Positions 2,876 through 30,575 of a stretch of 33,972 nt of DNA are shown piece by piece. The notes under the pieces were generated by a model. It ran no database searches, had not been told where the DNA came from, and saw nothing but the letters and a program-made list of their open reading frames with translations. Origin of the DNA: Candidatus Bathyarchaeota archaeon (GTDB lineage Archaea > Thermoproteota > Bathyarchaeia > Bathyarchaeales > Bathycorpusculaceae); assembly GCA_012515445.1 (NCBI GenBank), contig JAAYYI010000079.1:1-33972 (forward strand), read 5' to 3'. Each line of letters starts with the position of its first letter. Positions within the stretch are counted from its first letter, which is position 1. The position numbers were made by a program, and so were the translations under genes.

Positions 2876-3030
2876 ACTGTGGGGTTTGTGTGGTTGCTAT
2901 GTGTGGCTTGGCTTTTCTGTGCAGTTGTTTCCGGGGCCGGCTTTTTTGCGGTTTGGATACGTTTGTTGCTCTCAAGCTACCTCCTCCCCTTATATAAAGC
3001 GCCTAAACAGAACCTACCCGTCTCAGAAGC
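2876..3030 (+). repeat. Dispersed intergenic repeat, copy 1
   Basis: The 2725-3124 gap lies between the divergent map and DUF2284 genes and holds no convincing gene. The block 2990-3024 matches the reverse complement of 25051-25085 with only three differences in 35 nt, all transitions. The upstream TCAAGCTAC (2972-2980) also recurs at the matching place in that copy (25095-25103, reverse). The first half, with GGGGTTTGTGTGGTTGC, resembles the GGTTTGGGTTGC core of the other copies more weakly. A 63-residue hydrophobic reading frame crosses the copy, but I do not call it a gene. A TATA-like CATTATATGAA near 3075 may serve the DUF2284 gene. Confidence 0.65.
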
Positions 3031-3124
3031 ACCTCCCCTTCCTTATTTAAAGGCAAATACCACTGGTTAGCCGTAAACATTATATGAAATCCTCCCTCAA
3101 CCAATAGAAAACCCGTGACCTAAC

Positions 3125-18401: not shown

Positions 18402-18520
18402 GCCAAGGAACTTAACTAGTGGATATTTATAATCGATTTCTTGGATTGCGGGTAAAAGCACTGACCGTGATATTAGGTCTCTAACCTAGCATAGATCAAA
18501 AAATCGGCCGCTTAGATATC

Positions 18521-18655
18521 GGAACTTGTAGAAGATGCCTCAACCAGCCAGCGACCCAAACCAGCCGCAGAAGCAAAAAAGCAGGCGCCTACAAACCCCT
18601 TTGGTAGAAGATAATTAAAGAGGGTACCCAGCTATTATCTTATAATTTGAAATTT
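18521..18655 (-). repeat. Dispersed intergenic repeat, copy 2
   Basis: Read on the minus strand, this copy has GGTTTGGGTCGC (18551-18562, reverse) followed by TGGCTGGTTGAGGC, matching the core of copies 3 and 4. A degenerate frame reads GFVGACFFASAAGLGRWLVE, similar to the frame of copy 4. It lies directly after copy 3 in the same orientation. There are in-frame stops, so it is not called a gene. Confidence 0.6.
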
Positions 18656-18699
18656 TAGCCGCATAACAATCTATGTCTAGCCCAGACTGAACTACCTTG

Positions 18700-18825
18700 T
18701 GCAATGCCCACAACCAGCCTGCAACCCAAACCAGACCCAGAAACAAAAACAGGCACTTCTGCAATTAACACTGGAAGAAGAAGTAATAGGGCTGGATTCT
18801 CCTCTTCTACTAATTTAAAAATAAA
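18700..18825 (-). repeat. Dispersed intergenic repeat, copy 3
   Basis: On the minus strand it starts with AAATTAGTAGAAGAGGAGAA, continues with a CCAGCCCTATTACTTC-like segment and GCAGAAG, and reaches GGTTTGGGTTGC (18721-18732, reverse). Its frame reads EEENPALLLLLPVLIAEV and then SGSGLGCRLVV, which lines up with EEKVPALLLHLPKLFADV and KSGLGCFLVE in copy 4. The gap 18402-18849 between the winged-helix gene and galT therefore consists largely of two head-to-tail copies. Confidence 0.65.
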
Positions 18826-18849
18826 ACCCCAAACAAGTTTGATCTACTG

Positions 18850-19878
18850 TTAGGGCTTTATTGCTTTTTTGAGTGCTTCAGCCGCTGACTCTGGTGTTAC
18901 GGTGTTGATGTAGACGCCTGTGCTCTTCTCAAACCCCGCCCAAGTGGAGAGTTTGGGGTAGACTTCGAGATGCCAGTGATAGCCTTCCTCTATGGTTTGG
19001 TGGATTCCATAATTGTAGGGTGGATCGTTAACTAAGTCCTTTAGCGCTTTTAGGCTCGATTTCAGCGTGGCTGCAAGCGATTTAACTTCTTCAGGAGTCA
19101 AATTGCCGATGTTTGGTGCATGCCGCTTGGGCAGTATCCAGAACTCCATCGGATTAATACTGGCGTATGGCGCGATGACTGCAAAATCTTCGTTCTCCAT
19201 GATCAGCCGCTGGGTTTTTACTTCTCGCTCGATGATGTCACAGAAGACGCATCTGCCCTGCTCCTTTTGGTAGTTGTCGGCAGCTTGCTTTTCCTCTTTA
19301 ATCATCGTTGGAATCATGGGTGTGGCGATGATTTGGCTATGAGCATGAGATAGCGAGGCGCCGGCTTCTAAGCCATAGTTTCGGAAAATCGAAATGTACT
19401 TCACATACGATTTTGCGGCAAGAGCCCTGAACCTGTCAATATATGATTCTATAACTAGTTCCAGCTGCGGCAAGCTTGCGTCCGCTGGACCCTCCTCATG
19501 GATAGGCGACTCAACCACTACTTCATGGAGGCCTATGGCGTAGCCGAAGTCTGCTGTACTAAAAATTTTAAGTGCATCTTCGGAGCGCTGGGGATGAGTG
19601 AAAGCTGGGTACATGTTGGGTATGGTGCGGACCAGCCAGTTTGTTGGACGCTGCCCTTCCGGTGGGTCATGCCCACGCTTCACTTCGCCGTCTACACTCT
19701 GCAGGAGCAATACAGCGGGGGGTGTCATGTGCTCGTTTCCGACGCAGAGTGGGCAAGCAGCGGATTTAGCGGCTTCCGGTCTGGCTTTGGCGAGGTCTGT
19801 GGGTCTTTTGCTGCGTTCCTTGGCGATGACGACCCAGCGGTCAAGAAGATAATCCTTACGAAGTTCATTATAGGGCAT
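18850..19878 (-). CDS. galT: Galactose-1-phosphate uridylyltransferase
   Basis: This cytoplasmic enzyme exchanges UMP between UDP-glucose and galactose-1-phosphate. The 342 residues carry the histidine-triad-like motif SHAHSQ (H178, H180, Q182), with the nucleophile His in the middle. Zinc-site pairs CPLC (42-45) and CVFC are present, and the C-terminal half has GYHWHLEVYPK. The HAHSQ variant of HPHGQ is common in archaeal enzymes. The gene ends next to a repeat array and is divergent from the GT39-like gene. No galK or galE is in the window. Confidence 0.93.
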   Translation of the reverse strand: MPYNELRKDYLLDRWVVIAKERSKRPTDLAKARPEAAKSAACPLCVGNEHMTPPAVLLLQSVDGEVKRGHDPPEGQRPTNWLVRTIPNMYPAFTHPQRSEDALKIFSTADFGYAIGLHEVVVESPIHEEGPADASLPQLELVIESYIDRFRALAAKSYVKYISIFRNYGLEAGASLSHAHSQIIATPMIPTMIKEEKQAADNYQKEQGRCVFCDIIEREVKTQRLIMENEDFAVIAPYASINPMEFWILPKRHAPNIGNLTPEEVKSLAATLKSSLKALKDLVNDPPYNYGIHQTIEEGYHWHLEVYPKLSTWAGFEKSTGVYINTVTPESAAEALKKAIKP

Positions 19879-24864: not shown

Positions 24865-25050
24865 TTAGTTCTCAAACAGGCCAGACAATGTCAAGAACCC
24901 CTTATGCATGCTGCCAATAGTATTTTTTTGGGAGCCAATTCTCAGTAACATGCTATCTATAGCTGTTTATCTATCTGCTCTATTAACAGTTGTATGCAAA
25001 AACCATAGAGGGGGTCTCTACGCCTTTGATAGGGAGGGGGTCCTCACTTT

Positions 25051-25280
25051 GAGACGGGTAGGTCCTATTTAGGCGCTTTACATAATGGATGGGAAGTAGC
25101 TTGAAGGTAACAGAAGCTGTCGCCGCCGCATTAAAAACCGTACCAAAGCCGCTTTTGAAAACGCCTCAACCAAAAAGCAACCCAAACCCGACTTAAAGCC
25201 AAAAACATCTGCAAAAAGTTTAGGTAAATGAAGTAGCAGGGCGGGAACCTTTTCTTCTAATTTGAAATCAAAAAATCGTC
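25051..25280 (-). repeat. Dispersed intergenic repeat, copy 4 (most complete)
   Basis: The gap 24832-25364 contains this copy. Its distal end on the minus strand, 25051-25085, is the 35-nt block shared with copy 1 with three transitions. Its proximal end has AAATTAGAAGAAAAGG and the core GGTTTGGGTTGC (25177-25188, reverse) shared with copies 2 and 3. It thus joins both halves seen separately elsewhere. The minus-strand frame (25287 to 25078) stays open for 69 codons with EEKVPALLLHLPKLFADV, but the other copies carry stops. Function is unknown. Confidence 0.7.
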
Positions 25281-25364
25281 TAAACACGCGGTAAGTCGCA
25301 TAAAGCTTGATGGCAACATTTTAATTCTATTTACAGCCTAAGAGGATAAAACAGGTAATCAAGT

Positions 25365-30225: not shown

Positions 30226-30340
30226 GGTGTTCAGAATAAACCAACGTTGGAAGTAAATAAAAATACTGTACGGTGACAAAGCTAATTTCTCAAGCTTCTA
30301 TTTCTCTGCCGATACCTCCCATTATTTAACAGCAGATCAA

Positions 30341-30575
30341 AAAATATTTCTAATTTAGAAGAAGAGAATGCCGCCCTACCACTTCATTTTCTTTAATTTT
30401 TTGCAGAAACAGCTGATTTTGGTTCAGCGTCTGAATTTTTGTTGTGGGTTGGTTGTGGCGATTGTACAAGCAAGAAAGGGCAAAATAGCGCTTTTTTGGT
30501 CGACTGTTAAAGGCGACGTGGTTAGGTTTTTGTCCTCTTATCTGGCATGTATGACTCCTAGCGTATACCCACGTA
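30341..30575 (+). repeat. Dispersed intergenic repeat, copy 5
   Basis: On the plus strand it has CTAATTTAGAAGAAGAGAAT, GCCGCCCTACCACTTCATTT and TTTTTTGCAGA, which follow the first half of copy 4 closely (AAATTAGAAGAAAAGG, CCCGCCCTGCTACTTCATTT, TTTTTGCAGA). The core region GTGGGTTGGTTGTGGC is diverged, and the distal half is hardly recognisable (TTGTCCTCTTATCTGGC). The frame LEEENAALPLHFL is interrupted by a stop. It fills the gap before the beta-mannosidase 3' end. Confidence 0.62.

Follow-up and report, generated by a model that had tools for sequence, protein, structure and literature searches.

The archaeal MITEs SM1-SM4 of Sulfolobus solfataricus are recorded in 25-44 copies, and the Chunjie MITE, 178-235 bp in length, occurs together with partial copies lacking TIRs or DRs, according to the available part of the source (PMC10969869). 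The same text describes the BOX, RUP and SPRITE elements of pneumococcus as small intergenic repeats that cluster and insert into one another (PMC10969869). For the STAR elements of staphylococci inter-locus recombination has been considered, and the authors, in the accessible portion of their report, argued against gene conversion (PMC3532100).

The window, i.e., the whole stretch of DNA analysed (33,972 nucleotides), is contig C58 of a 2.44-Mb, 127-contig Bathyarchaeota assembly (G000, 92% complete), and holds a 5S rRNA gene at its start (6-125). In it the initial annotation had recognised five copies of one degenerate repeat family. The family is real and larger than first noted, with a core of about 115 nt and many copies beyond the window, and a search of titles and abstracts, with subscription journals mostly outside its coverage, returned no paper describing it. 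Four of the five copies contain the core, which was found at E 6e-25 to 6e-16 by a model built on 58 copies in nine genomes, with no rows taken from the window (next-best window match, E 0.35), while the fifth (2876-3030, +) has no core match. The features of the window are the following:

2962..3050 (+): module B alone, corresponding to the first copy of the initial annotation (own-genome searches; no core match there)
18490..18503 (-): right TIR remnant TTTTTTGATCTATG (read from the sequence by eye, no separate score)
18521..18648 (-): core copy, second of two and more degenerate (58-copy model, E 7.5e-22)
18695..18826 (-): core copy, the first of two adjacent ones (58-copy model, E 6.2e-25)
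18836..18852 (-): left TIR remnant TAACAGTAGATCAAACT, 2 mismatches (TIR pattern scan)
25025..25114 (-): module B beside the core, outside the core family (own-genome sequence searches)
25142..25275 (-): core copy within the repeat singled out initially (58-copy model, E 5.5e-16)
30330..30506 (+): complete 177-bp MITE copy, with left TIR CAGCAGATCAAAA and right TIR TTTTGGTCGACTG enclosing the core, the whole flanked on each side by a 4-bp TTAA
30345..30491 (+): core (module A) of the complete MITE copy (58-copy model, E 3.5e-20)

Two dispersed repeats in the window and their distribution

The repeat at 25051-25280 had been presented as a single unit. It does contain a degenerate core; nonetheless, its only part in common with 2876-3030 is the '35-nt end', and it is therefore one degenerate core beside one copy of module B, a separate dispersed repeat to which that end belongs and not a part of the core family. 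The ordered set of motifs on which a single family had been founded had merged two different repeats. When 25028-25280 was compared with its own genome, 41 matches covered two separate parts of the query, the core (module A) and module B. At least 40 own-genome matches to one window copy of module B were obtained (40 of 92 candidates scored), and 25 of the 27 matches within 433 kb of that genome lay outside predicted genes, with no clear orientation relative to them. Module B consists of two halves, TTTGTTGCTCT..CCCCTTATATAAAGC and GGACCTACC..CCCTTATTTAA, each also found alone and each ending in a TATA-like box, in which TIR elements, the MITE included, often sit. A modular structure is also a property of BOX repeats.

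At 18.5-18.8 kb two cores lie between TIR remnants in an arrangement suggestive of a single dimeric element of about 360 bp, and locus L172 of genome G018 has the same plan, two cores within one TIR pair. Beyond the window, a model built from an alignment of 37 core copies found at least 99 core matches in the own genome at E up to 0.001 (best 150 of 1,556 first-look candidates scored). With the 58-copy model, 14 of the 32 genomes of the genus matched at E up to 1e-6, with at least 92 cores each in the own genome and in G018, 57 in G029, 54 in G013, 52 in G015, 27 in G024 and 1-14 in eight others. Under stricter filters, 16 genomes from an even draw of 201 of the class matched the core, all within the taxonomic family of the window and belonging to 3 of 84 genera. 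The version of the core differs from genome to genome, and an exact scan for the core motif in named genomes returned seven stretches, all from Candidatus Bathyarchaeota FK_Sedi_B_Bin.165, BE326-BA-RLH and AM-2014_bin-0583. One high-scoring copy (G152:C23:44508-44653, E 1.1e-26) belongs to another genus of the family, in a genome with only two matches, and is possibly a recent transfer. As to a virus origin, the exact 23-position core motif, the one motif tried, had 0 matches in viral contigs.

Terminal repeats, target sites and a candidate transposase

Four core copies of the own genome (window 30330-30506, L006, L014 and L015) lie inside TIR pairs of the form TAACAGTAGATCAAAAA. Allowing up to 2 mismatches, this pattern had 54 matches in the own genome vs. 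1 for a reversed control, and it also bounds core-less elements of 183-188, 284-296 and 425-430 bp there, while G018 has core elements of 173-184 bp with these TIRs at their ends. The initial annotation had named a match to a transposon end as evidence that would speak against its reading, and such a match was indeed found, for part of the family only. The flanks of the TIR elements are mostly TTAA, TTAT or ATAA. An exact 4-bp flank repeat was present in 13 of 49 automatically paired TIRs, chance pairs included, vs. 4.8 on average and never more than 12 over 500 shuffles, a modest excess in that the targets are themselves alike (TTAW); widths of 2, 3 and 5-8 showed no clear excess in the TIR pairs, and several clear TIR elements have no matching 4-bp repeat.

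At least 18 of the 54 own-genome TIR matches are within 400 nt of a contig end, and this crowding indicates that repeats of this group break the assembly, so that full elements may be missing from it. At the start of contig C68 (L143), the end of C56 and the start of C16, all of the own genome, a contig-end TIR is followed by a gene start (MTKGKPWDIEE..) resembling one at L158, where the gene adjoins a weak terminase match (phrog_38, E 0.0014); this is apparently a MITE type that has part of a provirus gene inside it. A search with a joined peptide for an autonomous transposase hit the small gene next to the weak terminase match instead.

A candidate partner was located in G018 through the spacing of TIRs. 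The element (L169) is 1,113 bp long, has the same TIRs as the core elements and TTAT on both sides, and contains an ORF of 347 aa, whose product matches the DDE domain PF01609 (45.3 bits vs. a cut-off of 23) and has ISH3 (NF033541, E 4e-51) as its best NCBIfam match, at 173.8 bits and so below the curated cut-off of 225. By these matches the protein is an ISH3-like DDE transposase, a divergent relative not to be filed as a member of ISH3. Judged by eye, the transposon and the MITE share their TIRs only. Among the 41 genomes searched, the transposase was matched at E up to 1e-10 only in G018 and in G012, where a fragment of it is flanked by two TIR matches that are 0.7 kb apart; no match was found in the own genome, nor in G013, though the latter has many copies of the core.

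Coding capacity, folding and placement of the core

A reading frame with an EE..SGLG peptide, recognised by the initial annotation in several copies and broken in others, had suggested a decayed small gene as one of two possible ancestors. The frame is visible in the consensus, where it can be read except for one stop, and is not conserved as such: 13 of 65 copies are open and in frame, and such copies, with the readable consensus, speak for a decayed protein-coding gene or gene fragment. However, stops interrupt 45 of the 65 copies and 22 have length changes that are not multiples of 3, variability by codon position is flat (0.170/0.158/0.166) with no excess at third positions, and Pfam held no family for three peptides of the shared frame at E up to 10. 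The decayed gene is therefore extremely improbable, and the core is non-coding. Annotators of this clade should be aware that peptides of the EE..SGLG type can be fragments of these elements.

The other proposed ancestor was a structured noncoding element. As first noted, no named family matches the core: at gathering scores Rfam matched only the 5S rRNA, and permissive thresholds gave four sub-threshold matches around 24980-25320, all unrelated. Folding of five copies on both strands (ten folds) was no better than for shuffled sequences (z-scores +1.84 to -1.62), and RNAalifold proposed five pairs for the own copies and none for the genus-wide alignment. Visual inspection of alignment A2 suggested two helices (columns 31-42 with 63-72, and 131-140 with 148-157), with arm types that include GTTGTTG/CAACAAC, GGAAGATG/CATCTTC and GTAGATGA/TCATCTAC. 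They exceeded all 500 shuffles on three of five measures, namely the paired cells (78.7% vs. 75.0%), the cells changed on both sides (58 vs. 36.1) and the covariation score (0.196 vs. 0.140 shuffled and at most 0.116 when slid), and did not exceed them in pairs with double changes (10 vs. 9.3; 223/500) or in further pair types (25 vs. 23.9; 190/500). Since the helices were chosen from the same sequences and related copies were counted separately, we tentatively read them as marking an imperfect inverted repeat within the element and not as proof of an RNA; the structured ancestor gains weak support from the three measures, with the folds and the genus-wide RNAalifold result pointing the other way.

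All copies had initially been described as intergenic. In a 433-kb sample (the window and a further 399 kb, with simple gene prediction of our own) the core was matched 20 times at E < 1e-9; 18 of these matches are entirely intergenic by that prediction, and the other two run about 4 and 15 nt into the edge of a predicted gene. In 13 cross-genome pairs of copies sharing a flanking gene (>= 150 bits), 6 have the same gene end and orientation, vs. about 3 expected by chance, and in the pair L039/L215 both flanking genes are shared, the spacing between stop codon and element being different; old insertions shared between genomes are possible. ARAGORN placed five of 133 cores 1-13 nt behind a tRNA gene, the left end facing the tRNA 3' end in each (L218, L224, L229 and L231 of G013, L112 of G029), and in one G015 copy a tRNA 3' end lies 68 nt to the right of the element. 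The number expected by chance was estimated as 0.1-0.2 from the own genome (4 tRNA genes, 91.6 kb between genes in 433 kb). The association is only a lead, because it was seen before it was counted and the estimate derives from the own genome, while four of the five cases are in G013.

These observations bear on whether the core could be a functional intergenic element (an RNA gene, a terminator or a protein-binding site) held by purifying selection, with TIRs free to decay. A conserved core with lost ends, covariation above shuffles and slid controls and the placement behind some tRNA genes agree with such a function. Nevertheless, the 20 copies showed no preferred orientation relative to genes (the upstream gene faces the element in 8 and points away from it in 12), the core is missing, at E 1e-6, from 18 of the genus's 32 genomes, and the five folded copies have no stable fold, all of which makes selection for a function a very unlikely account.

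Loss of ends, proposed recombination and comparison with known systems

The fate of the ends was followed in 133 distinct copies, mostly the best-scoring ones (69 from the own genome, 30 from G018, 17 from G013, 6 from G029, 5 from G024, 3 from G012 and one each from G006, G010 and G015), an end being called recognisable at 11 of 15 positions, a level that shuffled flanks pass in 1%. Of the own copies, 66 of 69 could be anchored; 10 had a recognisable left end and 13 a recognisable right one, with both present in 6 and neither in 49, so that most copies are assigned by homology of the core only. The core at 25142..25275 has a passing TIR at neither end. Both ends were recognisable in 11 of 30 G018 copies and neither in 6, whereas neither was found in 11 of 17 copies of G013 and in 16 of 17 from the remaining genomes. 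Among the 65 own copies scoring above 60, 17 keep a recognisable end, and their median core identity to the consensus (0.851, n = 17) does not differ from that of the others (0.842, p 0.59). Had the ends diverged like the cores, about 57 own copies would be expected to show a left end, vs. the 10 observed: the ends are too few for the divergence of the core, and ends and core have therefore had different histories. The core persists or spreads without its ends.

One explanation would have the core as a mobile unit of its own, running from a T-rich left edge to a TACAAG right edge, moving by a TIR-free route (e.g., single-strand or RNA-templated) and captured at some point in a TIR element. The 49 of 66 own copies without TIRs have similar outer borders even so, core identity is the same with or without an end, and the five copies behind tRNAs leave little room for a left TIR, as independent mobility would predict. 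On the other hand, TIR-bearing copies are common in G018, and in three pairs of own copies an identical tract stops inside the element (59-75 nt at 97-99%, the remainder of the core to the right being 57-67% identical), which recombination predicts and transposition does not. We consider a self-mobile core unlikely.

Tracts of this kind are not limited to the own genome. Shared stretches of 124 nt (L219/L225, inverted copies about 3 kb apart in G018), 137 nt (L223/L228, G018) and 118 nt (L218/L082, G013) are 97-98% identical, vs. 28-52% in the sequence to their left and 32-37% in that to their right, and L222/L233 of G013 have 220 nt in common, including TIRs and neighbouring sequence, which may be a larger duplication or conversion. 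A PHI-type test gave p 0.0015 for the own genome (65 copies), 0.0005 for G018 (the 15 copies, out of 30, that score above 75) and 0.055 for G013 (17 copies); summed run lengths exceeded all 60 permutations in the three genomes, and the longest single run exceeded them in the own genome and G018 only, not in G013, with the reservation that clustering of variable sites can inflate all these tests. From these patterns we infer ectopic recombination between copies, with tracts that would seldom reach the edges of the element.

The explanation we favour, and hold to be probable, is that the core family is a MITE spread by a trans-acting transposase at its TIRs, the core having then been kept alike by ectopic recombination. 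The MITE origin is well supported, and the recombination part, resting on the mosaic tracts, is less certain. TIRs bound 30330-30506 and three further own copies as well as 11 of the 30 G018 copies, the 4-bp duplication is in excess, and the family is multicopy, mainly intergenic and without coding capacity; an autonomous partner with the same ends occurs in relatives only (L169 of G018 and the G012 fragment). The element would be a non-coding MITE of about 173-188 bp, whose TIRs CAGTAGATCAAAA would be recognised in trans by a transposase, presumably of the G018 type, and which would insert at TTAW sites with a duplication of about 4 bp and so spread between genes. In end-less copies, tracts copied between elements in the manner of gene conversion would keep the core alike, and the ends, adjoining unique flanks, would seldom be included in the tracts and would hence decay. 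As most own copies are end-less and no relative of the transposase was found in the 92%-complete assembly, the transposition route of the own genome has probably come to a halt or is missing its partner. Counting against the favoured explanation are that same majority of end-less own copies, the fact that transposon and MITE have only their TIRs in common, the lack of a transposase match in the own genome and G013, the ISH3 score under its cut-off, the chance pairs among the TIRs and the clear elements with no 4-bp repeat, the weaker G013 results and the possible inflation of the recombination tests, and the sharing beyond the core in L222/L233, which recombination confined to the core does not predict. 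It is conceivable, if doubtful, that the core was propagated or homogenised independently of the ends, with a consensus per genome through concerted evolution of about 100 dispersed intergenic repeats and some core-only insertions behind tRNAs in fixed orientation.

An unexplained repeat thereby becomes a transposon-derived family with a candidate partner, probably a new MITE family of Bathyarchaeota with a likely ISH3-like partner. The family is unusual in that its middle persists without the ends, a testable oddity for which recombination is ranked ahead of independent mobility, and the latter ahead of selection. If recombination among about 100 short dispersed copies holds true, ectopic gene conversion in uncultured archaea would be naturally recorded in these genomes.

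STAR elements are likewise interspersed intergenic repeats, the difference from what the available portion of that report describes being that tracts shared between copies are seen here. Nested small repeats recall BOX, RUP and SPRITE, with the MITE often placed in the TATA-like end of module B; judged by name, their sequences would be unrelated to those described here. The relation to the ISH3 family lies in the DDE transposase, and the distance from it in the score of the G018 protein (174 bits vs. a cut-off of 225). Prokaryotic MITEs such as SM1-SM4 and Chunjie, as far as the accessible text describes them, are alike in size, TIRs, short target duplication, intergenic placement, lack of coding capacity and partial end-less copies (PMC10969869). 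The family described here differs from the known MITEs in sequence, and in that its end-less copies form the majority in the own genome, with cores no more diverged than those of copies that keep an end.
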